Of a DNA stretch of 64,000 nt, positions 6,492-24,500 are shown one piece after another. Position 1 is the first letter of the stretch; each line of letters opens with the position of its first letter. Both the position numbers and the translations under genes were made by a program. The notes under the pieces were generated by a model. It was not told where the DNA came from, searched no databases, and saw nothing but the letters and a program-made list of their open reading frames with translations. Source of the stretch: Moorella glycerini (GTDB taxonomy: Bacteria > Bacillota > DSM-521 > Neomoorellales > Neomoorellaceae); the NCBI RefSeq assembly GCF_009735625.1, contig NZ_CP046244.1, positions 1,550,001 to 1,614,000 on the forward strand, read 5' to 3'.

Positions 6492-6494
6492 GCC

Positions 6495-6523
6495 TTGACA
6501 TGGCCTGGAGTTTAGTGTAGGAT
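6495..6523 (+). promoter_or_regulatory. Promoter of the radical SAM operon
   Basis: TTGACA (6495-6500), a 17-base spacer and TAGGAT (6518-6523), just after the prfB terminator and about 90 bases before the next start codon. Confidence 0.7.
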
Positions 6524-6615
6524 GAAAGCGGGTCATTTGGGTCTTTTGGGTATAATATTTGGGTTTCTGGGCATTGCTAAAGGAAACTGCATCAGGAAAG
6601 GAGAGGGGTTGAGCA

Positions 6616-8007
6616 ATGGTCGCCGTGCGTGCCAACCTGGACCTGGCCAAAAGGTACGTGGCCGAAAAAGTTTTACGGGAAGCCTTCGGTTACATGGAAA
6701 AAAATCCAGAAGAGAATTTCCCCCGCCTGCTGCATGTGGCCCGGATGCTGGCCCGGAAAGAAGTACATAAGCAGCAGATCGCCAAAGTCCTGGAGGCTTA
6801 CCGGCAAAACCCCAGCATCCACGCCTATGTAAACCGCCTTTTTAACCTGCACCCCAATGTCAAGCAGCGCCTTATTTACAACTGGTTCGTCAACGCCATG
6901 CTCCTGGGCATCCCCCGCCAGCAACAGGTGGAAAAGGAGACGGGCGTCCATATTCCCAACTTTTTCCTGCTGGACCCCACCAGCGACTGCAACCTGCGCT
7001 GCCACGGCTGCTGGGCCGGGGAGTATGCCCACCATGACAGCCTGGAACTGGACCTGGTGGACCGCCTCTGCCGGGAGGCCAAAGAAGTGGGCATCTACTG
7101 GCTGGCCATGTCCGGGGGCGAGCCCTTCCGCTGGCCCCACCTCTTTGAACTGGCAGAAAGGCACCCGGATATGACTTTCATGCTCTACACCAACGGCACG
7201 TTAATTGATGACGCCGTTGCCGACCGCCTAGTGGAAGTGGGCAACATTACGCCGGCCATCAGCCTGGAAGGCTGGCGGGAACGCACCGACGCCCGCCGGG
7301 GCAAAGGCGTTTTTGACCGGGTCATGGCGGCCATGGACGCCTTGAGGGAACGGGGCCTGGTCTTTGGCGTTTCCCTTACCATTACCCGGGAAAACGTCGA
7401 GGAAGTAACCAGCGATGCCTTTATCGATTTCCTGCTGGAAAAGGGAGTTATTTACGGCTGGAGTTTCCACTACATTCCCATTGGCCGGGAACCCAATCCC
7501 GAACTGATGATCACTCCCGAGCAGCGGGCCTACCTGGTGGAGCGCGTGGCCTATATCCGTAACCACAAGGGCCTGCAGCTGGCCGATTTCTGGAATGACG
7601 GCGAACTGACCCTGGGCTGCATCGCCGGTGGCCGCCGCTACTTCCATATTACCGCCAGCGGGGCCGTCGAACCCTGCGCCTTTATCCACTTCTCCCTGGA
7701 TAATATCAAAGAGAAAAGTTTAATGGAGGTGCTCCAGTCGCCCCTCTTCCGGGCCTACCAGCAGCGCCAGCCCTTCAGCGATAATCTGCTGCGTCCCTGC
7801 CCCTTAATTGACGTTCCCGCAGCCTTACGGCAGATCATTGCCGCCACAGGGGCCAGGCCTACCCACCCGGGGGCGGAAACGGCCTTAAGCGGACCCATTG
7901 GTGCCTACCTGGATGCCAATGCCGCTCGCTGGGGCGCAGTTGCCGATAGAATCTGGCAGGAACGCCACCCGGTGGAAGCAGAAAAAGAATTGACAGCCGG
8001 GAAATAA
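6616..8007 (+). CDS. Radical SAM protein, possibly SPASM-like
   Basis: 463 residues. The radical SAM 4Fe-4S motif CxxxCxxC is at Cys125, Cys129 and Cys132 (CNLRCHGC), followed by the SAM-binding GGE segment in MSGGEPF. The first 110 residues form an alpha-helical extension. Further cysteines lie in TLGCIAGG, EPCAFIHF and RPCPLID, consistent with an auxiliary cluster region. The enzyme would cleave SAM to a 5'-deoxyadenosyl radical; its substrate is unknown. ATG 6616 follows GGAGAGG. The next gene is a winged-helix-like regulator only about 40 bases away, so the pair probably forms an operon ended by the terminator at 8727. Confidence 0.85.
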   Translation: MVAVRANLDLAKRYVAEKVLREAFGYMEKNPEENFPRLLHVARMLARKEVHKQQIAKVLEAYRQNPSIHAYVNRLFNLHPNVKQRLIYNWFVNAMLLGIPRQQQVEKETGVHIPNFFLLDPTSDCNLRCHGCWAGEYAHHDSLELDLVDRLCREAKEVGIYWLAMSGGEPFRWPHLFELAERHPDMTFMLYTNGTLIDDAVADRLVEVGNITPAISLEGWRERTDARRGKGVFDRVMAAMDALRERGLVFGVSLTITRENVEEVTSDAFIDFLLEKGVIYGWSFHYIPIGREPNPELMITPEQRAYLVERVAYIRNHKGLQLADFWNDGELTLGCIAGGRRYFHITASGAVEPCAFIHFSLDNIKEKSLMEVLQSPLFRAYQQRQPFSDNLLRPCPLIDVPAALRQIIAATGARPTHPGAETALSGPIGAYLDANAARWGAVADRIWQERHPVEAEKELTAGK

Positions 8008-8049
8008 AAGGATATGCTGGGGGTAACATGGTATGGGAGAGGGACGCCT

Positions 8050-8721
8050 ATGCTTACCAGACGCCGATCCCAGTTCCTGGACAGGATCAGGGCAATCTAC
8101 CAGGAAACCGGGGAGCCGGTCCATTATATTACCGTAGCTGAAGCTTTACAGGTCAGCAAGTGGACAGCCTACGATGTGTTGCTGGAGCTGGAGAAGGAAG
8201 GTTTCCTGGAACGGCAGTATATCGTCAACAGTAACGAAAAAACGCCGGGCCGCTCCATGATAATGTTTGTTCCTACCCCCCTGGCCGAAAGTCATTCTAC
8301 CTTTGCCCTCGACTGGCAGCAGGCCCGCTCCAGGTTGCTGGAAACCTTAAGCAACCTCTTACCCCGGGAGGCCGGCCGGGTGGCGCGGGAACTATTAGAA
8401 GAGATGCCCGGCAAGGCCCACCCGGTAATTACCAGCGCCTACACCCTGACTATCCTGCTGGTGTATTTGAAATCCCTGGGGGAAAAGGCCCTGCAGCTGG
8501 TGCGCAGTGCCCTGAAGAAAGCGCCACGGCCGGAAGCCGGCCTGCTCCTGGCGACGGGTACGGGCTGGGGCCTGGCCGCCAATATGCTGCCCCAGGGTAA
8601 CCTGGCCGGACAGCTGGCTGCTTATTTGAGCCGCCTCCAGGAGCAGATCGAGAATTTAACTGGCGGCGAGCACAAACTGCTGCTGGATTTTCTTCATGAA
8701 GCCCTGGAACGGGCCAGTTAA
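8050..8721 (+). CDS. Winged-helix transcriptional regulator-like protein
   Basis: 223 residues. The first 70 residues look like a helix-turn-helix with wing: YITVAEALQVSKWTAYDVLLELEKEGFLER. This is the layout of Lrp/MarR/DtxR-like DNA-binding domains. The rest is mainly helical with hydrophobic segments such as ITSAYTLTILLVYL and may be a sensor or dimerisation part that I cannot name. ATG 8050 is chosen because GGGAGAGGGA precedes it. ATG 8014 lies only two bases after AAAAGG and is less likely. It sits directly after the radical SAM gene and before a strong terminator, suggesting it controls that gene or an allied process. Confidence 0.7.
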   Translation: MLTRRRSQFLDRIRAIYQETGEPVHYITVAEALQVSKWTAYDVLLELEKEGFLERQYIVNSNEKTPGRSMIMFVPTPLAESHSTFALDWQQARSRLLETLSNLLPREAGRVARELLEEMPGKAHPVITSAYTLTILLVYLKSLGEKALQLVRSALKKAPRPEAGLLLATGTGWGLAANMLPQGNLAGQLAAYLSRLQEQIENLTGGEHKLLLDFLHEALERAS

Positions 8722-8726
8722 AAGGT

Positions 8727-8760
8727 AAAAGCCCGGTGCTGTATCAGCCCGGGCTTTTTT
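8727..8760 (+). terminator. Rho-independent terminator
   Basis: AAAAGCCCGG (8727-8736) pairs with CCGGGCTTTT across an 11-12 base loop and ends in TTTTTT. Confidence 0.85.
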
Positions 8761-8783
8761 AAACTAAATGGAGGCTTAAGCTG

Positions 8784-10448
8784 ATGTCCCTGCGGCGCCG
8801 TTATATCCACCTCCACCGTTACCGCCAGGTAGTGAATGTCCTGGCCCGCTATGGTTTTGGCTATCTCCTTGACCAGCTGGGGTTGGGCGAGCTAATCTTA
8901 AGGCGACCGCGGCGGGAAGCCCCCTTATCTCCCGGAGCGCGCCTGCGCCTGGCCCTGGCTGAACTGGGTCCTACCTTTATCAAGCTGGGGCAAATTTTGA
9001 GCACCCGCCCCGACCTTTTGCCAGCGGATATCATTGCCGAGCTGGCCCGCCTCCAGGACCGGGTGCCGCCCTTTCCCTTCGCCGCAGTTCAACATACGGT
9101 AGAAAAGGAGCTGGGCCAGCCCCTGGAACAACTCTTTCGCGAATTTGATCCCGAGCCCCTGGCGGCCGCCTCCATTGGCCAGGTACACCGGGCCACCCTG
9201 CCCGGGGGCAACCAGGTCATCGTTAAGGTCCAGCGGCCGGGCATAGCAGAACAGGTGCGGGTGGACCTGGAAATTATCTTCGACCTGGCCCGCCTGGCCC
9301 AGCGCCATACGGCTTACGGCCAGATCTATGACTTCACCCAGATGGTAGACGAATTTGCCCGCGCCATGGAGGGAGAACTGGATTATACCCGGGAAGGCCG
9401 CCATGCCGATCGCCTGCGGGAAAACCTGGCCGGCAACCCCCAGGTCTATATTCCGGCCGTTTACTGGGATTATACCACTGTGCGGGTGCTGACCCAGGAA
9501 TATGTAGAGGCGGTAAAACTAAACGACCTGGAAGAAATAGACCGGCGGGGTTATGACCGCCGGCGGATAGCCACCAATCTGGCCCGGGCCATTTACCAGC
9601 AGGTCCTGGTGGATGGCTTTTTCCACGGCGATCCCCACCCGGGGAACCTGGCGGTACTGCCGGGGGAAGTGATTGTCTTTATGGATTTTGGCCTGGTGGG
9701 GGCTTTAAGTGAGGAGCGCCAGGAGCAGTTTATCAACCTGATGCTGGGCATCATCCGCCGCCGCAGCCAGGATGTCCTGCGGACCATTTTGGCCATGGGC
9801 GTGGTGCCGGACGGGGTGGATAGGAATGCCCTGAGGCATGACATTGAAACCCTGCGCGATCGCTATTACCACCTCGCTTTAAGCCAGATCAGCCTGGGCC
9901 GGGCCGTTGAAGAGCTGCTGCAGCTGGCCTTCAAATATCGTTTACGCCTGCCGCCGGAACTAACCCTGCTGGCCAAGACCCTTATTACCCTGGAAGGCCT
10001 GGCCCGGGAATTGGACCCCACCCTGGAGCTCGCTGAACTGGCCGAGCCCTATGGCCGGGAACTCTTACGCCGGCGCTTTAGTGCCGGGGCCCTCTGGCAG
10101 GCCCTGGCTGATAACCTGTCTTCCACGTGGGAGATGCTGCAGCACTTGCCCCGCCAGTTCCAGCATATAGTGGAAATGCTGGAAGGGGGAGAATTAACTC
10201 TTAAAATTGAACTCCTCAATTTACGCTCCCTGGTGCGGCAGATTGACCGGATTATTAATAAACTAACCATGAGCGTAGTCCTGCTGGCCTTCAGCATCAT
10301 CATGGCCAGCCTGATTATCAGTACGGCCCTGGGAGCGCCCGGTACCAGCCTCTTTTTCCGCCTGCCCACCCTCGAGATTGGTTTTGGCGCTGCCGGTTTA
10401 ATGCTTTTGTGGCTGCTGGTGGCCATGTGGCGGGGTAGTCGTGATTGA
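8784..10448 (+). CDS. UbiB/AarF/ABC1 family atypical kinase
   Basis: 554 residues. The family signatures are visible: KLGQ in the N-terminal extension (about 66-69), the Ala-rich loop AAASIGQVH in place of a glycine-rich loop, VKVQRPG with the ATP-contacting lysine, the catalytic loop HGDPHPGN and the metal-binding DFG in MDFGLVG. Two hydrophobic segments close the protein (SVVLLAFSIIMASLIIS and GAAGLMLLWLLVAMW), typical of membrane-tethered UbiB. In other bacteria such proteins support isoprenoid quinone synthesis or lipid handling. In an acetogen-like anaerobe the partner would more likely be menaquinone or another prenyl lipid, which is inference. ATG 8784 has GGAGG ten bases upstream. Confidence 0.9.
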   Translation: MSLRRRYIHLHRYRQVVNVLARYGFGYLLDQLGLGELILRRPRREAPLSPGARLRLALAELGPTFIKLGQILSTRPDLLPADIIAELARLQDRVPPFPFAAVQHTVEKELGQPLEQLFREFDPEPLAAASIGQVHRATLPGGNQVIVKVQRPGIAEQVRVDLEIIFDLARLAQRHTAYGQIYDFTQMVDEFARAMEGELDYTREGRHADRLRENLAGNPQVYIPAVYWDYTTVRVLTQEYVEAVKLNDLEEIDRRGYDRRRIATNLARAIYQQVLVDGFFHGDPHPGNLAVLPGEVIVFMDFGLVGALSEERQEQFINLMLGIIRRRSQDVLRTILAMGVVPDGVDRNALRHDIETLRDRYYHLALSQISLGRAVEELLQLAFKYRLRLPPELTLLAKTLITLEGLARELDPTLELAELAEPYGRELLRRRFSAGALWQALADNLSSTWEMLQHLPRQFQHIVEMLEGGELTLKIELLNLRSLVRQIDRIINKLTMSVVLLAFSIIMASLIISTALGAPGTSLFFRLPTLEIGFGAAGLMLLWLLVAMWRGSRD

Positions 10449-10494
10449 ATAATGTCTCCTGTTAAGGCGAACAATGGAGGTAAAAAGCGGGGGG

Positions 10495-10755
10495 ATGGCC
10501 ATGCCTTACAGGATAACCAATGCCTGCATTGCCTGCGGCGATTGTACGGTGGTTTGCCCCCGGCAGGCCATTACGGAGGACGGCAGGCCCCATGATGGTG
10601 GCGGCAGCAATTCCTGGGAAGGAGTCGCACCCGGGGGGGTTAGGAACAGTTCCCCTGGCAGTCCGGCCGCTTTTTTCCGGATAACGGCTGACTGTGATGC
10701 TTGCGGCTGCTGCCGGGAGGTTTGCCCGGCCGGGGCCATTATCTGGGAGGATTAG
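10495..10755 (+). CDS. 2[4Fe-4S] ferredoxin-like protein with an internal insert
   Basis: 86 residues. Two canonical cluster motifs are present, CIACGDCTVVCP and CDACGCCREVCP, each of the CxxCxxCxxxCP form, so two 4Fe-4S clusters are expected. Clostridial ferredoxins space these motifs by about 25 residues. Here an extra Gly/Ser/Pro-rich loop (around HDGGGSNSWEG) lengthens the gap. Its likely role is low-potential electron transfer. The start is either ATG 10495 or ATG 10501; GGAGG at 10476-10480 is somewhat distant, and ATG 10474 overlaps that SD. It follows the UbiB gene by under 50 bases. Confidence 0.85.
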   Translation: MAMPYRITNACIACGDCTVVCPRQAITEDGRPHDGGGSNSWEGVAPGGVRNSSPGSPAAFFRITADCDACGCCREVCPAGAIIWED

Positions 10756-10849
10756 GCGGGCGGGAGTATGGAGCAGACAAAATTACTGTTGCCAGGCAGG
10801 AAAATAGCTTTTTCTGGCGAAAAGGAATAACGTTCCAGGGGGTAGCGGT

Positions 10850-11692
10850 GTGCGGCGCAAAGAATGGCTTGACTACCTGGGCATTACAACCGGCACCTTG
10901 ATTACCGCCCTGGGACTGGTGCTTTTCCTGGTTCCCAATAAAATTGCCGCCGGCGGCGTCAGCGGCCTGGCCACGGTGCTCCATTATGTCTTCGGCTGGC
11001 CGGTAGGCCTGACCATGCTGGCCCTCAATATCCCCCTTTTCCTGGCCGGGCTGAAAGTCCTGGGCTGGAATTTTGGCCTCAAGACCCTCTACGGTACCCT
11101 TATGCTTTCCGTATTTACCGATGCCCTCACCCTGTGGCTCCATGCGCCCACGGCCAATGCCCTGCTGGCCTCTATTTACGGCGGCCTCATGAGCGGTGTG
11201 GGGCTGGGAGTTGTTTTCCGCTCCGGCGGGAGCACCGGTGGTACCGACCTGGCGGCCCTCCTCTTTGGCCATTTTCTCCATATCAGCTCCGGGGTGGGCT
11301 TGCTCCTGGTTGATGCCCTGGTAATCAGCCTGGCGGGCCTGACCTTTAATGTAGAACTGGCCCTGTATGCCCTGCTGGCCCTAATTTTAACCAGCCGGGC
11401 CATTGATGCCATCCAGGAGGGCAGCGGCTATGCCAAGGCAGCTATCATCATTTCCGACCATGCCGAAACCATAGCCCGGCAGGTAATGGAGCAGCTGGAT
11501 CGCGGCGTAACCGGCCTGGCTGGCCGTGGGCTGTATACGCGCCAGGAACGGGAAGTTTTACTGGTGGTGGTGCAGCGGTCCGAGGTCAGCCGCCTTAAAG
11601 CGCTGGTGGCGGCCATTGACCCGCGAGCCTTTGTCATTGTCAGCAATATCCATGAAGTTCTGGGCGAAGGTTTTCGCCAGTGGAGGAGATGA
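10850..11692 (+). CDS. YitT family membrane protein (DUF161/DUF2179)
   Basis: 280 residues. The first 180 contain five or six hydrophobic membrane segments, with the family hallmark FRSGGSTGGTDLAA between them. The last 80 residues form a soluble cytoplasmic DUF2179 domain (GYAKAAIIISDHAETIA to HEVLGEGF). YitT proteins are widespread in Firmicutes and some affect siderophore or xenosiderophore transport, but a general function is not established. GTG 10850 follows CCAGGGGG. The stop overlaps the next start (TGATG at 11690-11694), so it is translationally coupled to the transketolase N-terminal gene. Confidence 0.9.
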   Translation: MRRKEWLDYLGITTGTLITALGLVLFLVPNKIAAGGVSGLATVLHYVFGWPVGLTMLALNIPLFLAGLKVLGWNFGLKTLYGTLMLSVFTDALTLWLHAPTANALLASIYGGLMSGVGLGVVFRSGGSTGGTDLAALLFGHFLHISSGVGLLLVDALVISLAGLTFNVELALYALLALILTSRAIDAIQEGSGYAKAAIIISDHAETIARQVMEQLDRGVTGLAGRGLYTRQEREVLLVVVQRSEVSRLKALVAAIDPRAFVIVSNIHEVLGEGFRQWRR

Positions 11693-12513
11693 TGGGTTTG
11701 ACAGCAGATTTTCCAGAGTTAACGGCAACGGCGCGTCGGCTGCGGCGGCACATCATCAGGATGGTTGGCGCGGCCGGTTCCGGCCACCCCGGCGGGTCTT
11801 TATCGGCGGTAGAAATTATGACGGCCCTCTATTTTAAAGTCATGCGCCTGGACCCGGCCCGGCCGGACTGGCCGGAGCGGGACCGGTTTGTCCTTTCCAA
11901 GGGCCATGCCGCCCCGGTCCTTTACGCTGCCCTGGCGGAAAGGGGCTTTTTCCCGGTGGAAAGGATCACCACCCTGCGCCAGCTGGGCAGCCCCCTGCAG
12001 GGCCACCCGGACCGTAAAGTCCTGCCGGGAGTGGAGGTTTCCACCGGTTCCCTGGGCCACGGCCTGGCCGTAGCCAACGGCATGGCCCTGGCCGGCCGCC
12101 TGGACGGGCGGGATTACCACGTCTATGTCCTCCTGGGCGACGGCGAACTGGAAGAAGGCATGGTCTGGGAAGGGGCCATGGCCGCCGCCCATTATCACCT
12201 GGACAACCTGACGGCCATTGTCGATCACAATCATCTCCAGATTGACGGCCGGGTAGAAGACGTCATGTCACCGGAGCCGGTGGCTGATAAATTCCGCGCC
12301 TTTGGCTGGGAAGCAAAGACCATTGACGGCCACGATTTCGGCCAGATCCTGGCCGCCCTGGCCTGGGCGCGGCAAGTAAAGGGTAAACCGGCGATTATTA
12401 TCGCTGAAACCATCAAGGGCAAAGGGGTCAGTTTCATGGAAAACGAGGCCGGCTGGCACGGCAAAGCCCCGAAACCGGAAGAAGTGGAAAAGGCCCTGGC
12501 CGAGCTGGCCTGA
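11692..12513 (+). CDS. Transketolase, N-terminal (thiamine diphosphate-binding) subunit
   Basis: 273 residues, equal to the first domain of full-length transketolase. The ThDP and Mg binding motif is visible as GDGELEEGMVWEGAMAAAHYHLDNLTAIVDHN (GDG then about 30 residues to N). GSGHPGGSLS and GSLGHGLAVANG provide substrate and cofactor contacts. Together with the C-terminal gene at 12772 it would form the two-part enzyme that moves C2 ketol units between sugar phosphates in the non-oxidative pentose phosphate pathway. Of two adjacent ATG codons, 11692 has the better spacing (five bases) from GGAGG. Confidence 0.95.
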   Translation: MGLTADFPELTATARRLRRHIIRMVGAAGSGHPGGSLSAVEIMTALYFKVMRLDPARPDWPERDRFVLSKGHAAPVLYAALAERGFFPVERITTLRQLGSPLQGHPDRKVLPGVEVSTGSLGHGLAVANGMALAGRLDGRDYHVYVLLGDGELEEGMVWEGAMAAAHYHLDNLTAIVDHNHLQIDGRVEDVMSPEPVADKFRAFGWEAKTIDGHDFGQILAALAWARQVKGKPAIIIAETIKGKGVSFMENEAGWHGKAPKPEEVEKALAELA

Positions 12514-12559
12514 CCGCTACCCCCATGGGCGGCTGACACCCGCCGCCGGTGATGGCTGT

Positions 12560-12745
12560 TAACGACGGTATGTCCCATAGACGCGAAAAGCAGGGTGCCG
12601 GTAAAAGAACCTGCGGGGTGAAGGCCTCCGGCACTCAATCTGGAGTAAGAAAGCTGTTGCTCATACAAGGGCGTACCCCTTGAGGGAGACGCGGAAGAAC
12701 AAGTAGGGTGAACAGGAAGCCCTTGAGAGATAATACCTTTAGCAG
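12560..12745 (+). repeat. Structured intergenic element, copy 2 (between the transketolase halves)
   Basis: The 258 bases between the two transketolase genes hold no gene. GGTATGTCC (12567-12575) can pair with GGGCGTACC (12669-12677), with G-U pairs where copy 1 has Watson-Crick pairs. GCAGG (12590-12594) with CCTGC (12609-12613) and GTGCCGG (12595-12601) with CCGGCAC (12628-12634) are both perfect and cross each other, the layout of an H-type pseudoknot. The stretch aligns with copies at about 5069 and 51359 through TGTCCC, GACGCGAA-AG, GCCGGTAAAAGAAC and GGGGTGA-GGC. A second GAGACGCG-AAGAACA-like stretch follows at about 12684. Confidence 0.6.
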
Positions 12746-12771
12746 GACACTATTATCGGAGGAAGATATAT

Positions 12772-13707
12772 ATGACCAAGATTGCGACCAGGGAAGCTTA
12801 CGGCAGGGCCCTGGTGGAGCTGGGACGGCAGAACAGCCAGGTAGTGGTCCTGGACGCCGACCTGTCCAAATCCACTATGACCCACTACTTTGCCCAGGAG
12901 TTTCCCGAGCGCTTTTTCAATATGGGTATCGCCGAGCAGAGCCTCATGGCCACGGCCGCCGGCCTGGCCTTGAGCGGCAAGATCCCCTTCGCCAGCACCT
13001 TTGCCGTCTTTGCCACCGGCCGCGCCTACGACCAGGTGCGTAACGGCATAGCCTATCCTAAAGTAAATGTTAAGATTGGGGCCACCCACGCCGGACTCAC
13101 CGTGGGGGAAGACGGGGCTTCCCACCAGGCCATCGAAGACATCGCCCTCATGCGCGCCATCCCCAACATGACGGTCATCGTCCCGGCCGACGGGGAGGAA
13201 ACCAGGCAGGCCGTCTTCGCGGCCGCCGCCCACCAGGGACCGGTGTACCTGCGCCTGGGCCGCCCGGCCGTGCCGGTTATTTACAACGAGAATTATCAAT
13301 TCCAGATTGGGCGCGCTCACACCTTGCGACAGGGAAAGGATGCGGCCATTATCGCCTGCGGCGTCATGGTCCATGAGGCCTTGAAGGCAGCGGAAGAACT
13401 GGCCGCAGCAGGCCTGGACGTCATGGTTGTTAATATGAGCACCATCAAGCCCCTGGACCGGGAGGCGGTCCTGGCGGCGGCAGCCACCGGGGCGGTGGTG
13501 ACAGCCGAAGAACACACCGTCATCGGCGGCCTGGGGAGCGCCGTCGCCGAGGTCCTGGCCACGGAAAAACCCGTCCCCCTGGCCATGGTCGGCATCCGCG
13601 ACACCTTCGGCGAGTCCGGCAAGCCGGACGAGCTGATGGCCAAATACGGCCTGACGGCAGCAGACATCGTGGCGGCGGTGAAGGGGTTAAAGGGAAAAAA
13701 GGATTAA
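12772..13707 (+). CDS. Transketolase, C-terminal subunit
   Basis: 311 residues, covering the pyrimidine-binding and C-terminal transketolase domains. Visible features are GIAEQSLMATAAGLALSG with the catalytic Glu that activates ThDP, the phosphate-binding GEDGASHQAIEDIALMR, and a C-terminal Rossmann-like part with EEHTVIGGLGSAVAE. The subunit pairs with the product of the gene ending at 12513. ATG 12772 follows GGAGG at 12759. The intervening 258-base element is unusual, since split transketolase genes normally abut. A strong terminator follows at 13803. Confidence 0.95.
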   Translation: MTKIATREAYGRALVELGRQNSQVVVLDADLSKSTMTHYFAQEFPERFFNMGIAEQSLMATAAGLALSGKIPFASTFAVFATGRAYDQVRNGIAYPKVNVKIGATHAGLTVGEDGASHQAIEDIALMRAIPNMTVIVPADGEETRQAVFAAAAHQGPVYLRLGRPAVPVIYNENYQFQIGRAHTLRQGKDAAIIACGVMVHEALKAAEELAAAGLDVMVVNMSTIKPLDREAVLAAAATGAVVTAEEHTVIGGLGSAVAEVLATEKPVPLAMVGIRDTFGESGKPDELMAKYGLTAADIVAAVKGLKGKKD

Positions 13708-13802
13708 AATCAAAGTCTCCCTGGAAGCCGCCCTCCGCCGGCGTCCCGGATAAACTGACTACCACAGTTGACTTCTGCGACTTAAAGAACCGCATCGACA
13801 TT

Positions 13803-13828
13803 AAACCGCCCCTTAGGGGGCGGTTTTT
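13803..13828 (+). terminator. Rho-independent terminator after the transketolase genes
   Basis: AAACCGCCCC, loop TTA, then GGGGGCGGTTTTT: a perfect stem with a T-tract. Confidence 0.9.
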
Positions 13829-14120
13829 ACTTTTAGCGTGGGGGCAATGCGCCCGCGTGGATGCCGGGACCGGGCCGGTGCCATGACGCCGGCGAGCCGG
13901 GGAGGCGTTTCGGGAATTAGTAGGAGCGCTGAAATAATATTGATAATTTGGAAAATATCAGGTGCAGGGGCTGGCAGGAGCGGTGAATAATGTGACGAGG
14001 TCTGTTTTTCGTTTGATCGACATGCCGCGCTTCCGGGAAGGAACGCCGGCGAACCGGGGCCGGGGGAACGACTGTCAATGACTGGTTGGGAATAGAACGG
14101 GATGGCTTAAAGAGTTACGA
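13829..14120. other. GC-rich intergenic region with a direct repeat
   Basis: No convincing gene is seen. ACGCCGGCGAGCCGGGG (13885-13901) recurs as ACGCCGGCGAACCGGGG (14043-14059), 16 of 17 identical, 158 bases apart. An imperfect palindrome, TGATAATTTGGAAAATATCA, lies at about 13940. The region marks the left edge of the accessory island. Confidence 0.4.
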
Positions 14121-14462
14121 TTATACATCGTCCGGGATCTGGAGGGCGGCGATAAAGGCGGCGATGTTTTTGGCCGGGACGCCGGTGCGCTCGGACAGCA
14201 GCTTGACCAGTGGGTCGGCGGCCAGGGAACGATAGCTGGCCAGGGGTAACGGGGCAGCGGCTCTTTCGACGCCCACCAGCTCGTCCAGGGAAACACCAAA
14301 GAGTCGGCTCAGCCTGACCAGCGTCTCCAGGCCGGGCTGCTTCGTCCCGCGCTCCCAGTTGGCGACAGTGGGACGCTCGACGCCGACCATCCTGGCCACG
14401 TCTTCCTGCCGCAGGCCCTTCCGCTGGCGCAGCTCCTTTAGCGACTCGCCGAACTTCAGCAC
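14121..14462 (-). CDS. XRE-family helix-turn-helix regulator
   Basis: 113 residues. The N-terminal 60 residues are a Cro/CI-type HTH: LKELRQRKGLRQEDVARMVG, then VERPTVANWERGTKQPGLETL, where the recognition helix lies. The remaining 50 residues (PLASYRSLAADPLVKLLSERTG and onward) are of unknown role. GTG at 14462 is chosen because a near-perfect GGAGGTGAT ends eight bases before it; the ATG at 14468 is too close to that SD. It is divergent from another XRE gene at 14598. The 15-bp palindrome at 14479-14493 sits just upstream of its SD and is a natural autoregulatory operator candidate. Confidence 0.9.
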   Translation of the reverse strand: MLKFGESLKELRQRKGLRQEDVARMVGVERPTVANWERGTKQPGLETLVRLSRLFGVSLDELVGVERAAAPLPLASYRSLAADPLVKLLSERTGVPAKNIAAFIAALQIPDDV

Positions 14463-14478
14463 GATCATCACCTCCAAA

Positions 14479-14493
14479 GTTTCTAATAGAAAC
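14479..14493. promoter_or_regulatory. Perfect 15-bp palindrome, putative XRE operator
   Basis: GTTTCTA-A-TAGAAAC is fully symmetrical about one base. Related GTTTCC half-sites lie at 14521 and 14544 around the divergent promoter, and TTGGAA (14503) with TTCCAA (14523) is another inverted pair. Binding by either XRE protein is inferred. Confidence 0.6.
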
Positions 14494-14513
14494 CTTATAT
14501 GTTTGGAATCCTA

Positions 14514-14543
14514 TTGACAAGTTTCCAACAGATTACATATAAT
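14514..14543 (+). promoter_or_regulatory. Consensus promoter for the rightward XRE gene
   Basis: TTGACA (14514-14519) and TATAAT (14538-14543) are both perfect, spaced 18 bases. GTTTCC half-sites lie immediately after each hexamer, a layout suited to repression. Confidence 0.8.
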
Positions 14544-14597
14544 GTTTCCAGACGGCACATCAGGGGATGAGCAGTACGAGAGAAAAGGAGGCAGCTA

Positions 14598-14843
14598 ATG
14601 CGCACTGCCCTGCGCAGGGTCCGGCTCCAGGCCGGCCTGACGCAATCCGAACTGGCCCGACGGGTTGGGTTGACGCGTGCTTCCTACACGAACATCGAGA
14701 AGGGGCGCAAAAACCCTTCCGTGGGCACCGCCCTCCGCATCGCCCGGGCCCTCAACCGGCCGGTTGAGGAGCTCTTCGCCGACGAGTCCCCTGCCGTCCA
14801 GGACGCCAGGAGCGGAAGGAGGGCGATGCGGGAGGAAGGTTGA
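14598..14843 (+). CDS. Small XRE-family helix-turn-helix regulator
   Basis: 81 residues, nearly all HTH: LRRVRLQAGLTQSELARRVG, then LTRASYTNIEKGRKNPSVGTA and RALNRPVEELF. The close match to the short phage- and plasmid-type regulators that activate or repress one divergent partner suggests a two-gene switch with the leftward XRE gene. ATG 14598 follows AAAAGGAGG at 14583 with good spacing. It has a perfect consensus promoter. Transcripts may read on into the surface-protein genes downstream, because no terminator is seen before 15069. Confidence 0.9.
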   Translation: MRTALRRVRLQAGLTQSELARRVGLTRASYTNIEKGRKNPSVGTALRIARALNRPVEELFADESPAVQDARSGRRAMREEG

Positions 14844-15068
14844 ACGGGCTCCAGGTGCGTACCGTCGGAAGTAAATATTGCCGTTGCTGCCGCGGATTAT
14901 GCACAGGGCCGCGGCCTGCCCGGGGAAAGCTGGTGTGCCAGCCGGCGGGCCGGGCGCCGGTCCCGGCGGCGGCGATGCCCGGAGGAGGTGGGAGTAGCAA
15001 AGAGAGGGTAGATACGGGTGCACCGGTGACATCCATATCGAGGCAGCTAAATCTCAGCGAGGAGGGTA
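14844..15068 (+). other. GC-rich leader with serial hairpins before the surface-protein genes
   Basis: No gene is seen. GCCGCGG (14889-14895) pairs with CCGCGGC (14909-14915), and GCTGG (14929-14933) pairs with CCAGC (14938-14942). A GCCGGG/CCCGGC pair follows at about 14950-14970. There is no T-tract. It looks like a structured 5' leader rather than a terminator; no known riboswitch core is recognised. Confidence 0.4.
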
Positions 15069-18000
15069 TTGAAAAGAGTGAGTGCGCAATCTTTGACTAA
15101 AAGTTTTAAAAAGGCGCGCAGAGCCGTAGCCGTAGTGGCGGTCCTCGCCCTGCTTTTGGCGCTACTGCCGGCGGTGCCGGCGATGGCGACTGCAGCGAAT
15201 GTCAACGTGTCTCCAAGTTCCGGCAAGGCAGGCGCCGTTGGGAGCTATACTATTACCTTCAGTTCCGACACTTCAGTTAATCCAGGCGACCAGATCGCCG
15301 TAATTTTCCCCAGCGCGTTTGGAGACGCGAATGCCGCGGTGGAAAAGGTTACGGTAAACGGTGCAGTGTACAGCTTCAGTGCCCAGCGCCAGGCGCCCGG
15401 AGTGTGGTCCCTATACTACACTGGAAGCCAGGCTATTCCGGCGAACGTTTCCTACGCGGTTTACTTCAACAATCTAGTGAACCCCACCACAGCAGACAGT
15501 TATCAGATTACGGTCCGCGCCCCCTATCCCACCGATGCCGGGAGTTCGGCAAGTGTAACGATCACTCCAGCGGATCCTGTTAAGCTGGTGATCCAGGGTC
15601 TCACGGATGAAGACGGTAGTGCACCTGGCATCCAGATAACGGTCGGTAGCACCCAGAATTTGGTTATCACACTGGTCGACCGGTACGGCAACGTGGGCGC
15701 AGAGAACAGCACCGGCAAGGACATCCACGTAAAGCTGACCGATACCGATACCCAGGCTAACTTTGGTAGCAACCAAGAAGTCGAGGTAACAATTGCGCAA
15801 GGAGCCACGCAAAATACTGCGGCGTGGACGCCCAAGACCGCTGGCACGGTGACCATCACCGCCACCGACGTGACGGAAAACCCGAACCCGCAGATGCAGG
15901 CGGCTTCGGTGGACGCGCAGGTGCGTGCTGCCGCTCCCGCTAGCATTCTGCTGGACGGACCCAGCTATCTCGATAAGGACGCAGAGGGTGCCTATAACGT
16001 CACTTTGAAGGATGCCTATGGGAACACGGCCCCAGCACCAGCAGGTGGCATCACCGTTACCCTGGCTGCCAGCCCCGGTGATGGCGTAACTTTCACACCC
16101 AGCAGCGTTGTGATCCAAGAAGGTCAAAGCTCAGGCACCTTCAAATTCAAGAGCAGCAAGGCCGATATGTACAACATCACGGCGTCAGCTACCGGTCTGG
16201 TGCAGGCCGAAAAGAGGGTCGCCGTGGGCGTGACCGTCCTGAGTAAGCTTGCCGTCACCGCACCGGCTACGGGCGAGGTTGGTATTGCCAACGAAATCAC
16301 CATCGAGTTAAGAGACCAGTTCGACAAATCGTTTGCCGCTCCGAACGACCTGACGGTCACCCTGAGCACCGACAAAACCGGTACCTTCTACGACAAGCCC
16401 TCGAACGGTACTAGCATCCTCAGTGTAACCGTTCCAAAGGGCCAGAGCAGCGTCAAGGTCTACTACGTGCCCGGCACCAACGCCGTTGGCGCTCACAAGC
16501 TGATCTTCTCGACTGTTCAGCTTTTGAGCGACGGGCGCTCTACAGGTACCACCGTCACGGCTGAGGCCACCATCAACGTGGGCACCGGCGCTGAGCTTAG
16601 CCTCGTGGTGAGCGGGCTCAACTTCACCGCCGGCCAGCGGGGCGAGGTCACCATCACGGTTAAGGACGGCCACTACAACGACGTTCCTGCAGGCCCGAAC
16701 GGCCGTGTGGTCTACCTGGAAACCGAGAGCCCGACCGGCAAGTTCTACTCTGCTGCTGAGGGCGGCGACCCGATCACCCAGGTGACCATCCCGGCAGGGC
16801 AGGCAAGCGTGAAGGTCTACTACGTGGACACCGAGAGCTGGACCAAGAAGGCTATGGCCGACGGTAAGCTTTCATCCGCAGCTGTTTCGGATAGTGGGCT
16901 TTACAGCTACACTGTGGCCTTCCGCTCTGAGGGTGTGATTGGCTTCTCCGGAAAGGCTATCGTCAATCCGGACGAGGCCAAGGCCATCACCCTGGACATA
17001 GCGCAGCAGGATGTGAACGCGGTGCCCGATTCGATTTGGACCCAGATCGGTTCCAAGATCGGCGCCACCGACCTGATCGGTATTGCCAAGATGCGCGTCG
17101 GCGTGGTCGACCAGTACGGCAATCCTGTGCCGCAGAACACGCTGCTTCGCATCTCGGTGAAGAACGACTCGCCGTCGGCGTTCCTCTGGGTTGACTACGC
17201 GGAACTCGAGAACGGCGAGTGGGCTGAGGAACACGATGCCTGGCTCATCGTCACCGCGCCTAGCACGTACAACGTGACCGCTTCTGCGGGCGGCTTCGAA
17301 GCCGTCTCGAAGCAGGTCGTCTTCGAAGAGCCGTCCCTAGAGATCGTAGCTCCGGCTACGGCCCTGCCCGACACCCGCGTGCCGGTGATGGTAAGGCTCA
17401 CCAACCTATGGGCTTCCGGCCGTGACCTCGAGGTTGACCTTGCCACCAGCACGACGAACAGCGCCTTCTACGCTACTGATCAAACCGCGGAGCCCATCAC
17501 CCAGGCAGTCATCCAGGCATATAACAGCGAAGTCACCGTATACCTCGAAAGCGACGACCCGCTGGGCACCGCAGTTGAGCTCACCGCCTCCATCGCCGAC
17601 CTTAACCTGACGGCAAAGGCAACTATCAACCTCGGCAGGAGTGCTGATGGTACTACGACGCTGAGCCGCGGCTGGAACATCGTCTCCACGCCGTGGACGC
17701 TGGCTGAGGGCAAGAACACTATCGATCAGGTTCTGTCCCATCCCGAGTACGTAGAGCAGGCCTACGGCTACGCCAATGGGCAATGGTATCAAGTGACCAC
17801 CGCGGATCCAGCGACCATGGAACTCCGACCGCTGGAGGCGCTGTACGTGAAGCTCAAGGGTGCCACCGACGCGGCCTTCTGGGCGAGGCGCGGCCTGGGC
17901 ACGCCGCCGGTGCGGGATCTGGCGGCTGGCTGGAACCTGATCGGCAACCCGGCGAGTAGTGCAACGGGAGCGAACGAAGCTCTCTCCAGCATCACTGGCA

Positions 18001-18161
18001 GCTACGCGGTGGTGATCAACCCGGCCGGTTGCAACCAGGGTGACTGGGTCTATACCCCGCAGACGGCAACGGTACCTAACATGGAAGCTTTCCGCGGCTA
18101 CTGGGTCTACATGACCAAGGCCGATAAGTTGGCTGGCCAGGCTATGCCGCCGCTGGAGTAG
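15069..18161 (+). CDS. Large exported surface protein with Ig-like repeats
   Basis: 1030 residues. A Sec signal peptide with a basic n-region and the hydrophobic core VVAVLALLLALLPAVPAMA ends at AxA near residue 40. The mature part is a string of beta-rich, Thr/Val/Gly-rich Ig-like modules. Each carries variants of DQYGN/DRYGN/DAYGN, and several carry repeated VTIPAGQASVKVYYV-type strands. The C-terminal 170 residues have two GWN modules (SRGWNIVSTPW and AAGWNLIGNPA) ending with GYWVYMTKAD, seen in clostridial envelope proteins. No SLH or LPXTG anchor is present. TTG 15069 lies three bases after AGGAGG, so GTG 15078 is an alternative start. It is followed 14 bases later by an SLH protein gene, probably a functional pair. 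Confidence 0.85.
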   Translation: MKRVSAQSLTKSFKKARRAVAVVAVLALLLALLPAVPAMATAANVNVSPSSGKAGAVGSYTITFSSDTSVNPGDQIAVIFPSAFGDANAAVEKVTVNGAVYSFSAQRQAPGVWSLYYTGSQAIPANVSYAVYFNNLVNPTTADSYQITVRAPYPTDAGSSASVTITPADPVKLVIQGLTDEDGSAPGIQITVGSTQNLVITLVDRYGNVGAENSTGKDIHVKLTDTDTQANFGSNQEVEVTIAQGATQNTAAWTPKTAGTVTITATDVTENPNPQMQAASVDAQVRAAAPASILLDGPSYLDKDAEGAYNVTLKDAYGNTAPAPAGGITVTLAASPGDGVTFTPSSVVIQEGQSSGTFKFKSSKADMYNITASATGLVQAEKRVAVGVTVLSKLAVTAPATGEVGIANEITIELRDQFDKSFAAPNDLTVTLSTDKTGTFYDKPSNGTSILSVTVPKGQSSVKVYYVPGTNAVGAHKLIFSTVQLLSDGRSTGTTVTAEATINVGTGAELSLVVSGLNFTAGQRGEVTITVKDGHYNDVPAGPNGRVVYLETESPTGKFYSAAEGGDPITQVTIPAGQASVKVYYVDTESWTKKAMADGKLSSAAVSDSGLYSYTVAFRSEGVIGFSGKAIVNPDEAKAITLDIAQQDVNAVPDSIWTQIGSKIGATDLIGIAKMRVGVVDQYGNPVPQNTLLRISVKNDSPSAFLWVDYAELENGEWAEEHDAWLIVTAPSTYNVTASAGGFEAVSKQVVFEEPSLEIVAPATALPDTRVPVMVRLTNLWASGRDLEVDLATSTTNSAFYATDQTAEPITQAVIQAYNSEVTVYLESDDPLGTAVELTASIADLNLTAKATINLGRSADGTTTLSRGWNIVSTPWTLAEGKNTIDQVLSHPEYVEQAYGYANGQWYQVTTADPATMELRPLEALYVKLKGATDAAFWARRGLGTPPVRDLAAGWNLIGNPASSATGANEALSSITGSYAVVINPAGCNQGDWVYTPQTATVPNMEAFRGYWVYMTKADKLAGQAMPPLE

Positions 18162-18175
18162 GGGGTAGGTAAGGA

Positions 18176-20569
18176 ATGCGCAGGCAGCGCCACGTAAGGC
18201 TCTTGAGCATGTTGGTGGTCGCTGCCCTGCTCTTAGCGGTGATGGGCGGAGGGCTGGCCCTTGCGCAGGGCACGCCCTCCGCACCCGTCTTGCCGCAGAG
18301 CTTCTGGGGCAGCGTGAAGGACGCGAGCGGTAATCCCATTATCTCTGGGACCGTGGAGGCTTGGATGAGCGGCATGAAGCAGGATAGTATCGCCATCGTC
18401 AACGGGCAGTACGGCGGTCCTGGTGGTTTTGATGAAAGGTTAGTCGTTCAAGGGACAAGCGAGGAAGTAGGTAAAACCATTGAATTTTATGTGAATGGTG
18501 TCAAAGCTAATGAAACGTACCAGTACGCGCCAGGAGAAAAAACGAACCTTAACTTGACCGTAGCTGGAGCACCCCAGCCTCCCCAAGATACTACCCCACC
18601 AGCGGTGGTCAGTACGGATCCGGCTGACGGTGCCACTGGAGTTGGGGTTGATAAGACTATCAATGTAACTTTCAGTGAAAGCATTCAGGCAGGAGATGCA
18701 AAGGAAGGCGTTTTAGTTAAGGACTCCGCGGGCAACGCGGTGGCTGTGAACACAAGCATCGAGGGCAATATTCTCAATGTAAAGCCAAGCACAAGCCTCG
18801 CATACAATACCAAGTACACCGTAGCCATCCCCGCCGGCGCTGTGAAAGACGCGGCGGGTAATAACCTAGCGCAGGCCTACGTGTTCAGCTTCACCACCTC
18901 CCAGGCAGTAACGAAAGTAGAAATAAGCGTGCCTTCTGATGGCAAGCTGGACAACTTCACCATGCCGCCTGGCGCTTCCAGCGTAGTTTTGAACCAAGGC
19001 GGCGCTCAGATGGAAATCCCGCAAGGCGCTTTTAGCGGCGCAGCAGCAATCACTTTCAAGCCTGTGGATAATACTGGGCTTCCCGGCGCCAGCTCGATAG
19101 GCCAGGTCTTTGAAATAAAGATCGAGAAAGTGACCCTTTCCCAACCGGTGACCCTGCGACTGCCTGCACCGGCCGGCGATCGGGTACGGGTGTTTAAGCT
19201 GGTAGGCGGCCGCTGGGTTAACCTTGGAGGCACCGTAAGCGGTGGATATGTAGAGGTAAGCCAGAACTTTTTTAGCCTCTTCGCCGCTGCCAATGCCCCG
19301 GCACCTCCTACAGCCAGCCCGGAACCCGGCAGCTACACTGGCAGCGTGCAGGTGACCCTTTCTGCGGAATCTGGCGCCACTATCCTTTACGGGCTTAACG
19401 CTCCCCCGCAGAACACCTACACAGCGCCCATAACGCTGACCTCGAACGGTACCATCCGGTCGGTGGCAGTGAAGGACAACCTCACCAGCGATGAGGTGAA
19501 CTTTGCCTACACCGTAACCACTTCCACCGGCAGCAGCGGGGGCGGCGGTGGCGGTGGTGGGGGAGGCGGTGGCGGCGGCTCGACCACCCCTTCCACCAAC
19601 CGGGTAGAGCAGCCCATCCAGTCCAGTGCGGCGACGGTAGCTGAACTCTCCGGCGTCGCCCGCGTTGACGTGCCGGCCGGGGCGGTTTCCGGCACGGGCG
19701 CGACCATCGCCGCCGAGGTGAAAGACGACTCCCTGGCCGCCCAAGCCGGCATGCCCCTCATCAGCAAAGTCGTCGACGTGACCCTGAACAACGGTACCTT
19801 GAGCGGGCAGCTAACCATCACCCTCTACTACGATAAAAGCAAGCTCGCCGCCGATCAGCAACCTGTGGCCTGCTATTACAACGCCAGCCAGGGGCAGTGG
19901 GTGCGCCTTGAAGGTAGCGTGGACGAAAATGCCGGCACGGTGTCAGTCACTGTCGACCACCTCACCACCTTCGCCGTCTTCGCCGCGGCCAAGGAAGAAA
20001 CGCCGCCGGTGACCTTCAAGGACATGCAGGGCCACTGGGCCACCGGGACGGTCAGCCGCCTCGCGAGCATGGGCGTCATCTCCGGCTATCCAGATGGTAC
20101 CTTTAAGCCTGACATCCAGATCACCCGGGCGGAAGCCACCGCCATCCTGGCGCGGGCGCTGAAGCTGGCTCCGGGCACCGAGCAGGACCTGAAATTTAAA
20201 GACAACGCCGCCATACCAGACTGGGCCCGTGGGGTCGTCGCAGCGGCTGCCAGGGAAGGGCTGGTGAAGGGTTATCCCCAACCGGACGGCTCGGTAACTT
20301 TTGAGCCCGGCCGCTCCATCTCCCGGGCGGAGCTGGCCGCCATAGTGGTCCGCATCCTGGCCATGAAGTCGGGCGCCCCGGCGCCGGCCGAGCTCAAGTT
20401 CACCGACACGACCAGCATCCCCGTCTGGGCGCGCCGGAGTGTGGCCCAGGCTGTAGCCAGCGGAATCGTCGCCGGTTATCCCGACAACACCTTCCAGGCC
20501 GAGCGACCCGTCACCCGGGCGGAAGCCGCGGCCATGATCCTGCGCCTTCTGGATAAGATTGGAACCTAG
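18176..20569 (+). CDS. S-layer-homology (SLH) domain surface protein
   Basis: 797 residues. The signal peptide (RRQRHVRLLSMLVVAALLLAVMGG) has a likely cleavage after ALA near residue 29. Then come an Ig-like domain with TTPPAVVSTDPADGATGV (Big_5-like, about 139-243), a ZU5-like segment, a chitobiase-type beta module (TASPEPGSYTGSVQVTLSAESG) and a run of 14 glycines near residue 460. A second beta segment follows, and finally three SLH domains (about 617-797), each ending with an ITRAE or VTRAE-type motif. SLH domains bind pyruvylated secondary cell-wall polymer, so the protein is anchored to the wall, perhaps holding the upstream secreted protein. ATG 18176 follows AGGTAAGGA. Two terminators follow. 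Confidence 0.92.
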   Translation: MRRQRHVRLLSMLVVAALLLAVMGGGLALAQGTPSAPVLPQSFWGSVKDASGNPIISGTVEAWMSGMKQDSIAIVNGQYGGPGGFDERLVVQGTSEEVGKTIEFYVNGVKANETYQYAPGEKTNLNLTVAGAPQPPQDTTPPAVVSTDPADGATGVGVDKTINVTFSESIQAGDAKEGVLVKDSAGNAVAVNTSIEGNILNVKPSTSLAYNTKYTVAIPAGAVKDAAGNNLAQAYVFSFTTSQAVTKVEISVPSDGKLDNFTMPPGASSVVLNQGGAQMEIPQGAFSGAAAITFKPVDNTGLPGASSIGQVFEIKIEKVTLSQPVTLRLPAPAGDRVRVFKLVGGRWVNLGGTVSGGYVEVSQNFFSLFAAANAPAPPTASPEPGSYTGSVQVTLSAESGATILYGLNAPPQNTYTAPITLTSNGTIRSVAVKDNLTSDEVNFAYTVTTSTGSSGGGGGGGGGGGGGGSTTPSTNRVEQPIQSSAATVAELSGVARVDVPAGAVSGTGATIAAEVKDDSLAAQAGMPLISKVVDVTLNNGTLSGQLTITLYYDKSKLAADQQPVACYYNASQGQWVRLEGSVDENAGTVSVTVDHLTTFAVFAAAKEETPPVTFKDMQGHWATGTVSRLASMGVISGYPDGTFKPDIQITRAEATAILARALKLAPGTEQDLKFKDNAAIPDWARGVVAAAAREGLVKGYPQPDGSVTFEPGRSISRAELAAIVVRILAMKSGAPAPAELKFTDTTSIPVWARRSVAQAVASGIVAGYPDNTFQAERPVTRAEAAAMILRLLDKIGT

Positions 20570-20627
20570 GGAGGCCAGTAAAAGTTGCAAGAAGCAAACC
20601 AGAAATAACCGTTAAAGAAAAGGCAAA

Positions 20628-20660
20628 AGGCGGGGCAATTTAAAGCCTCGCCTTATTTTG
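20628..20660 (+). terminator. Terminator after the SLH gene
   Basis: AAGGCGGGGC (20628-20637) pairs, with one mismatch, with GCCTCGCCTT (20646-20655), followed by ATTTTG. Confidence 0.7.
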
Positions 20661-20728: not shown

Positions 20729-20870
20729 ATACAGAGTAGACTGCCAGCGGCCCCTGACTTGAGTGGAATTCCCAACCGGTAAAGGCAAAATTACCGGCGA
20801 CCGGATGGCATGGATCTGGCAGATAAAAGCCGTCTGGATGACAGGACCCGCCTCAAAATATCGGGCAAAA

Positions 20871-21892
20871 TCACTGTTCCAGCTGTTTCTTCAACACGGC
20901 GATCTCGTCCGGAGTAAGCCCCGTAGCTTTAACAATGGTCTCTATATCGACGTTGAGCAGCAGCAGGTTCCGGGCTACTTCTCGTTTGCCCTCCAATTTT
21001 CCTTCCAGTTTTCCTTCCAATTTACCTTCCAGTTTCCCTTTCTGTTCGCCTTCTTTTAAGCCTTTTAACAAAGCCTGCTGTTGCATCTCTTCCAGGGTTA
21101 TTTCCAGGTTGTAAATCATCCGTTCCACCTCCCAGGGATTGCTTGCGTCCAGGATGCCGTCGATTTTTGCGCTAAAATCTCCAGGTATTCTGGGCTTGAC
21201 GACGTTCTTCAGCCAGGTCGTAAAATGGCGGAACTCATCAGGCGTGAGCCGCCTTAAAATACCTGATAGTTTCTGCAACCTTCCAACCAGGTCTTCCGGG
21301 TGCATCCTCTGGTCCAAAAGAAAGATGCCGGCTATCAGATTGGCCACCCTGATTAGCTCTTCTTCGTTGTAACGGTTGACGTCAAATAGCAGGTAGCGGT
21401 AGTCCAGAAAATGCCCGCTGAAGTCTTGGTAACCGTCTAGCATTTCTTTGAAGGAGAGCGCCGCCGTCCAGGAGCCGGCCCCGTTGTAGAGCACCGCCGG
21501 GATGATGGGCGGCAGGCGGAAATGCTTGCTCTCCCGCTCGTGCTGCGGGGTGTTGTTGTAGATTTCCCGCCAGATTTCAACCATATAGAGCAGCAGCCGG
21601 AAAGGGATCAGGTAGTCTACCGTTGACTGCAGCTCCAGCAGGACGTAAAAGATGACGTTTCTATCTTTGGTCTTGAGCCGGTAGACGATATCGGCTTCTT
21701 TCTCGCTGAAATCCTGGAGGACGTAGGACTTGTTCACCAGATGAGGTCGTCGGCGTCAATGGCCTCCACCCAGTCTTCCCGGACGAAGGTCTTCAGCAGT
21801 TCCAGGAATACCCTTTTGTCGGCCAGGAGCTGCCTGTAACCCTTGTCGTGGGGGTGGTGGGGAGGCCGGGGTTGCCCTTCATTTTCCGGCAA
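20871..21892 (-). pseudogene. Rpn-family (PD-(D/E)XK nuclease/transposase-like) gene with a one-base frameshift
   Basis: The main frame (20871-21737) encodes 288 residues with NKSYVLQDFSEKEADIVYRL and VIFYVLLELQSTVDY, the core of Rpn-type recombination-promoting nucleases. The missing N-terminus lies upstream in another frame: from TTG 21892 (after AAGGTGAT) it reads 52 codons including KGYRQLLADKRVFLELLK and EDWVEAIDADDLIW, then TGA at 21736-21734. A single missing G in TGG(G)TGAAC would restore one protein of about 340 residues. The second frame can start at GTG inside that TGA (GTGA overlap), so coupled translation is possible. A minus-strand TATAAT lies upstream at about 21918. The C-terminus has a GKLE repeat. 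Confidence 0.75.
20991..21038 (-). repeat. Four tandem 12-bp units encoding GKLE
   Basis: Four 12-base units encode GKLE four times in the C-terminal coiled part of the Rpn-like gene, followed by a related GKRE unit. Such runs change copy number by slippage. Confidence 0.85.
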
Positions 21893-22012
21893 GGGATCAC
21901 CTTCTTCTGGATTTTATTATAGCATATTTTTGTGGTATGACCGGTGGGGAGAGATATTCGCTGGCACAAAAACGCTAACGGGTGTAGCTATAGAATGCAT
22001 AAAGAAGGTTTA

Positions 22013-22549: not shown

Positions 22550-22870
22550 TTACAATATACCATCAGAAACAATCATTGTCAACGGAGTATGATATTGCCA
22601 TTTAATACAAGGGGTTAAAGTTTCTGGTATTTTCAAAAACAATCCATAACAGTATCGGTAATGTACCATGGACCAAAGTGGTGTACCCCAGCCAAGGCGG
22701 GCAGCCCTGCGCTTTAACTCCCTAACGTCCTTTTCGGTAACCGGAGGGTTACCGATATTAGATAACGATGAGACTTTTCTCATCCAGATTGATAACAAAA
22801 TCGATAGACAAATTATTACAATAACCACCAACCAAAAGGATTCTCGCCATTTGTGTCGAAAACAACCCAT
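22550..22870 (-). CDS. Possible small single-span membrane protein
   Basis: 106 residues, unrecognised. Residues about 12-30 (FWLVVIVIICLSILLSIW) form one membrane span after a basic N-terminus, so the bulk would be outside the membrane. The rest contains a KDVRELKRRAARLGWGTP segment. The SD is weak. The ATG at 22870-22868 lies in the loop of an AAAACAACC/GGTTGTTTT hairpin, which could block translation. Composition is AT-rich like the adjacent Gre-like gene, with which it may be co-transcribed. It could also be non-coding. Confidence 0.4.
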   Translation of the reverse strand: MGCFRHKWRESFWLVVIVIICLSILLSIWMRKVSSLSNIGNPPVTEKDVRELKRRAARLGWGTPLWSMVHYRYCYGLFLKIPETLTPCIKWQYHTPLTMIVSDGIL

Positions 22871-22888: not shown

Positions 22889-22905
22889 CCCCTGGAGGTG
22901 CTGGT

Positions 22906-24475: not shown

Positions 24476-24500
24476 TCTAGCGCAGAAGGGAGGTGAAGCC

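Follow-up and report, generated by a model that had tools for sequence, protein, structure and literature searches.

Divergent pairs of Cro/CI-like repressor genes and ImmR-type modules are well known. In phage lambda, CI and Cro are encoded by two divergent repressor genes with three related operators, and both promoters are covered. In Clostridioides difficile the S-layer cassette is reportedly exchanged, the flanks staying constant while recombination replaces the surface genes between them. Phage-related XRE proteins are known to control a surface trait in Caulobacter, where RtrA/RtrB, CdxA/CdxB and phage TgrL control adhesion; the XRE adhesion regulators form part of a network, share many sites and act on hfiA in trans (PMC10688885). 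A limited literature search, mostly of titles, found nothing on the pair described here or on XRE control of Moorella surface genes. No description of on/off control of S-layer-like operons in Moorella and its relatives was found in a similarly limited search.

The window, meaning the whole stretch analyzed, is 64,000 nt of Moorella glycerini DNA. A perfect promoter with half-sites after each hexamer, facing a leftward XRE gene preceded by a perfect palindrome, had been predicted there, and each of these features was borne out. The rightward promoter consists of TTGACA (14514-14519, plus strand) and TATAAT (14538-14543, plus strand) with an 18-nt spacer, one longer than the usual 17. With spacers of 15-19 nt allowed, neither strand of the 64 kb has another 12/12 match. 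GTTTCC follows both hexamers, at 14521-14526 with one A in between and at 14544-14549. The palindrome GTTTCTA-A-TAGAAAC at 14479-14493 is perfect (7/7 pairs). Four copies of GTTTC/GAAAC are present in the 135 bp from 14463 to 14597 compared to 0.27 expected, and none of 5,000 dinucleotide shuffles reached four. The bare 7-bp dyad is not rare, with an equally good one in 114 of 5,000 shuffles and 35 such dyads in the window. The palindrome goes beyond chance because its half-site recurs on the promoter and because it is conserved at 17 loci. The exact 15-mer occurs once in its own genome.

Three candidate operators were defined. O1 (GTTTCTAATAGAAAC, 14479-14493) is the palindrome, and it would cover the -10 and the start of a predicted leftward promoter. 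This promoter was absent from the original prediction. It reads TTGTCA-17-TAAGGT on the minus strand, with the -35 at 14515-14520 and the -10 at 14492-14497. Its -35 overlaps that of the rightward promoter, so the two promoters should exclude each other. O2 (14521-14535, plus strand) has a good left half, GTTTCC, and a weaker right half. O3 (GTTTCCAGACGGCAC, 14544-14558, plus strand) lies 23 bp from O2. A matrix built from O1 sites only, from five lineages with the window's own O1 among them, ranked O2 (14521) 16th and O3 (14544) 77th of 63,986 positions. The original interpretation was supported in part, in that the arrangement is that of a divergent XRE pair of the Cro/CI kind whose several operators are graded.

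The leftward gene, XREL, encodes a repressor-like XRE/HTH_3 protein of 113 aa (14121-14462, minus strand). Its start is most likely the GTG at 14462 because relatives keep GTG or ATG at that codon. The ORF is open to a TTG at 14477, which gives a 118-aa form. The rightward gene, XRER, encodes a Cro-like XRE protein of 81 aa with an HTH only (14598-14843, plus strand; Pfam HTH_3 and alignment). Both proteins belong to HTH_3 (PF01381; cut-off 23), XREL with 68.5 bits (4.9e-19) and XRER with 66.9 bits (1.6e-18). Pfam matched the 118-aa form of XREL and the 81-aa XRER to HTH-type families only, with no further domain type, and no CI-type C-terminal oligomerisation or autocleavage domain was found in either. 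The score for the RstR family repressor (NF041951) was 62.7 bits, below the curated cut-off of 80. The best profile match of XREL among solved structures was the ImmR DNA-binding domain (7t8i, 9.6e-14, HTH part), and its nearest solved relatives were ImmR, a Listeria regulator, DdrO and P22 c2. A conserved C-terminal stretch is retained in the XREL alignment. The AF2 model of XREL predicted an HTH and C-terminal helices (pLDDT 79.5, pTM 0.54) and was not strong enough for a dimerisation fold to be named. Foldseek matched this model to DdrO 6jq1 (3.7e-4; TM about 0.5, rmsd 6.7) and to SinR (1b0n/3qq6). In the alignments R and N are common to XREL and XRER at matching positions of the second HTH helix (VERPTVANWERG, LTRASYTNIEKG), whose DNA-touching positions are presumed to be those of phage repressors. 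Because R and N fall at matching recognition-helix positions in both proteins, XRER may read the same half-sites as XREL.

Loci for comparison were collected through XREL only. Six of the 11 genomes searched in the genus had a relative at 84-99% identity, the window's own included, and a close relative was absent from the other five Moorella genomes. The order search covered 22 genomes, of which eight matched at E<=1e-13. A phylum draw of 398 genomes, scored for the best 11 candidates at most per genome and therefore soft as to absences, yielded at least 20 at E<=1e-19, of which at least nine at E<=1e-49. Searches by class matched 2 of 13 genomes in the class of G041 and 6 of 113 in the class of G311. 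Seventeen loci from 16 genomes and seven families were read (G000, which is the window's own genome, G002, G005, G007, G009, G010, G016, G041, G184, G311, G404, G407, G411, G457, G459 and two in G011).

The order O1, -35, O2, -10, O3 was the same at the 17 loci, with deletions and degenerate copies counted. O1 lies at the leftward gene, O2 and O3 lie on the rightward promoter, and the two divergent promoters have overlapping -35 boxes. GTTTC-N5-GAAAC was found 5' of an O2-like site at 17/17 loci; because O1 and O2 were located by patterns, their conservation partly reflects how they were chosen. Locating the sites made no use of the right half of O2, of the -10, of O3 or of most of the leftward -10. 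The distance from the start of O1 to that of O2 was 41-43 bp at 15 of the 17 loci (38 in G010 and 333 in G005). O3 followed O2 by 23 bp at 14 of 17, by 24 in G459 and by 22 in G407 (by reading), and was deleted in G010. Conservation was scored at nine diverged loci of the 17, leaving out near-identical Moorella copies and broken or displaced loci. There the majority-base fraction was 0.96/1.00 for the arms of O1, 1.00 for the -35, 0.93/0.93 for O2, 0.98 for the -10 and 0.89/0.83 for O3, and the leftward -10 reached 0.94. Outside the sites it was 0.57 in the spacer, 0.51 in the leader and 0.56 upstream. The leftward -35 was TTGTCA at 15 of 17 loci and the leftward spacer was 16-18 nt at 13, where the -10 was TAAGGT (9), TAAAGT (2), TAGAGT (1) or ATACGT (1). 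Both arms of O1 are altered in G005 (GTTTCCAATGGAAAC, GTTTCCA-A-TGGAAAC) with the symmetry retained. Both arms of O3 are likewise altered in G041, where the site is symmetric (GTGTCCAGGCGACAC, GTGTC-CAGGC-GACAC).

In G005 the distance from O1 is about 310 bp to the rightward -35, compared with 20 in the window, and about 370 bp to XREL, compared with 16. The -35 overlap is therefore not retained everywhere. Several hundred extra bp lie either side of O1 at this locus (L043 10020-10700), where inspection by eye showed a leftward ORF that is short (about 27 codons) and has a good ribosome site. In G459 (L117, reversed, about 8650-8720) a terminator-like hairpin and T run, also noted by eye, lie between the rightward promoter and XRER and may be an attenuator.

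Two surface-protein genes stand behind XRER in the window. SurfA (15069-18161, plus strand) is an ORF for a secreted-looking surface protein of 1030 aa. The next gene of the putative operon (18176-20569, plus strand) encodes an SLH-anchored surface protein of 797 aa, with three SLH domains (2.8e-39) and Big_5 predicted by Pfam. An imperfect CGG-type triplet tract (poly-glycine) was seen inside this gene at 19528-19579. The link of the divergent XRE pair to surface-protein genes, also part of the original prediction, recurs in several families. The next genes at the 17 loci were surface-protein homologues at nine (SurfA, SLH or Ig-like homologues behind XRER in G000, G002, G009, G016, G184, G311, G404, G411 and G459) and exported-looking genes w/o a Pfam surface domain at two (G041, G457). 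Surface genes were fused to the switch by deletion at two (G007, G010), and other genes were found at four (G005, an MCP gene in a flagellar/chemotaxis region; G011a; G011b, disrupted; G407, a contig end). SurfA of G184, G311 and G404, behind the same switch, is 64-70% identical to that of the window. Two of the five SurfA genomes (G189, G260) have SurfA without the switch. In front of these switch-less genes (L121 111-1225, L123 389-1269) are small Cys-rich ORFs with the pattern LRCVCNRLIC...IEIKCxKCKR. They resemble Mu Com proteins by eye, and Pfam gave no match for the one tested.

A transcription terminator between the XRE gene and 15069, which would speak against the link, was looked for and none was found in the window scan. 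The gap from XRER to the surface gene was scanned at six loci (window, G009, G311, G404, G184 and G411), and none showed a terminator-like or sigma70-like site. Few such sites would arise by chance over this length, which makes their absence weak evidence. About 30 bp behind XRER the leader contains a conserved non-coding element, TATTGCC-N14-TTATGC (14871-14902, plus strand), identified by alignment. It was present at 11 of 14 loci, even before an MCP gene, and missing in G459, G041 and G407. Its exact matches lie only behind XRER, in the four Moorella genomes with an intact pair. A sigma-factor identity for the element was dropped, as by eye its spacing is not known to fit any sigma factor. 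An 86-aa ORF at 14840-15100 was considered as a small Cys-rich protein and rejected; its frame is not kept, with a stop in G005, and the conserved block was therefore treated as non-coding. A tRNA-Gln called by ARAGORN at 14880-14974 was also rejected as it was not at the same place in G009, G002, G005, G016 and G011. Rfam at E<=1 gave two sub-threshold matches only.

In Moorella the gene bodies of the surface locus vary from species to species, and the switch forms its constant left edge. Compared to G009, backbone identity was 78.9% (6001-12523) and 78.2% (22806-24810), with 86.9% at 12757-13882. It was 91.6% at 13803-15188, which holds the switch and the SurfA signal peptide, and 91.5% at 19565-20654, the end of the SLH gene. 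Nothing between 15188 and 19565 could be aligned at the DNA level. The contrast was similar with G010 (backbone 79.1%; 87.1% at 12685-13868, 87.8% at 14095-14527 and 90.6% at 19531-20654). There was no such contrast with G002 (backbone 93.9% vs. 91.9% and 89.5%), where the surface bodies still differ. The pattern fits an exchange of surface-gene bodies that may have occurred by recombination in the constant flanks. G003 and G004 lack the surface locus between transketolase and ftsE. An Rpn-type transposase-related gene lies behind the SLH gene in the window (20867-21940) and upstream of XREL in G009.

A domesticated phage/ICE-type (ImmR/Cro-type) repressor pair probably controls the surface-protein operon. 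XREL would bind as a dimer to the three related 15-bp sites. At O1 it would cover its own -10 and start and so limit itself. At O2 and O3 it would cover the strong rightward promoter and keep XRER, SurfA and the SLH gene off. Since the -35 boxes overlap, RNA polymerase could occupy only one promoter at a time. If XREL dropped, the rightward promoter would fire and XRER would be made together with the surface proteins, from genes presumably co-transcribed with it. XRER would then bind the same half-sites, shut XREL and damp its own promoter. Two stable states depend on the operator preferences of both proteins, which are not readable from sequence, and that the circuit has them is possible and rather doubtful. 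Phase-like surface behavior, also raised in the original prediction, is likewise no more than possible. The O1 pattern with up to two mismatches occurred at 23 places in the window's own genome, fewer than the 57 for a reversed control. With one exact match, XREL and XRER therefore look local and no wider regulon is claimed.

In a narrower form of this explanation, XREL alone is a homeostatic repressor that sets a graded level of the surface operon, XRER is a dispensable brake and the circuit does not have two states. Four of the 17 loci have no intact XRER, through truncation in G007 (after codon 32), G011b and G457 and through its absence in G010, and all four retain XREL and at least O1. 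The perfect site on XREL's own promoter favors self-limitation, and the lack of a CI-type C-terminal domain points the same way. However, XRER is readable at the remaining 13 loci and the overlapping -35 boxes favor exclusion. The loci were also found by XREL, so any loss of XREL with XRER kept could not be seen. A purely homeostatic role is quite possible, if short of probable.

The pair may otherwise be a mobile-element immunity remnant that hitchhikes at recombination hot spots, with the surface genes as neighbors and not targets, which is distinctly unlikely. Other divergent XRE pairs of the genus bear on this. Those at L051, L107 and L108 adjoin an M78 peptidase of the ImmA/IrrE type, so kinship with mobile elements is visible, and that at L051 (5494-9978; G000, second contig, 50 kb) also has a large serine recombinase. 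The other neighbors in G005 and G011 and the mosaic surface locus fit a remnant too. However, the block XREL-XRER-SurfA-SLH has the same gene order in G000, G184, G311 and G404 despite different outer neighbors, and the gap behind XRER has no terminator or second promoter at the six loci scanned. No integrase, peptidase or ligand domain was found among the 12 neighboring window proteins scanned. Surface genes do not follow the pairs at L044, L051, L107 and L108, which makes the surface link specific to the present switch family. By eye, the strong promoter at L051 carries TGTGYA-type repeats where that of the window has GTTTCC. A search of the plasmid collection gave no match. The phage collection gave 147 matching records, all below 60% identity, of which four covered at least 80% of the query. 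Viral contigs searched with XRER gave 18 loci at 33-50% identity.

Phase variation by DNA rearrangement or slippage at the switch is very unlikely, even though surface gene bodies vary between species behind a constant switch and G007 and G010 have deletions that join the switch to surface genes. In G007 (L039 10170) the deletion joins codon 32 of XRER to codon 118 of SurfA, and in G010 (L042 9864) it removes the -10, O3 and XRER. Both are draft assemblies of different species and not phases of one strain. Repeat scans found nothing at the promoter that could invert or slip: it has no short tandem tract and is not surrounded by long, well-matched inverted repeats. The genome has one SurfA copy at E<=1e-40, and what varies between species is the surface-gene sequence behind the switch. 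A chance promoter beside a chance palindrome, for which only the frequency of the bare dyad in shuffles speaks, is contradicted by the 17-locus conservation and the both-arm changes and has a negligible probability.

If the domesticated pair does control the surface operon, it is a clear example of a host that has put phage/ICE-type control logic to use at its own surface. In that case the regulators are conserved and the output genes exchangeable. As the switch is small and self-contained with three mapped operators, all-or-none coat expression is directly testable. A bolder reading, which is unlikely, is that a captured phage-derived two-repressor switch serves as a portable bistable on/off controller of the surface coat, with operators retained from family to family and coats swapped behind them by recombination. 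If so, cells of one culture may carry or lack the coat, for example escaping phages, and a new coat could plug in behind a ready-made switch.

Among known systems, ImmR/ImmA of ICEBs1 and related ICE/phage pairs share with this locus an ImmR-like XRE repressor (the 7t8i match) and divergent small XRE genes, and paralogous pairs of the same genus carry an ImmA-type peptidase. Unlike those systems, no M78 (ImmA/IrrE) peptidase was found among the 12 neighboring window proteins scanned, and the likely output is a surface operon rather than conjugation genes. The locus resembles lambda CI/Cro, at the level of sequence, in its divergent repressor-like genes and several related operators over both promoters. 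The number of related operators is also three, with an O2-O3 spacing of 23 bp here. It differs from lambda in having no CI oligomerisation/S24 domain, in its overlapping -35 boxes and in its location, which is not a prophage; the neighbors are transketolase halves, surface genes, ftsEX and others. Foldseek matched the predicted model of XREL to DdrO and SinR, two XRE repressors whose C-terminal domain is small and helical. The match beyond the HTH is not reliable, however, and there is no regulon of sites here. The Caulobacter regulators are also phage-related XRE proteins that control a surface trait, but the present pair adjoins its surface genes and has no visible regulon. The organism and proteins are unrelated to those of the Clostridioides difficile cassette. 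As is reported for that cassette, surface genes appear to be exchanged between constant flanks, but here a divergent XRE switch forms the left one.
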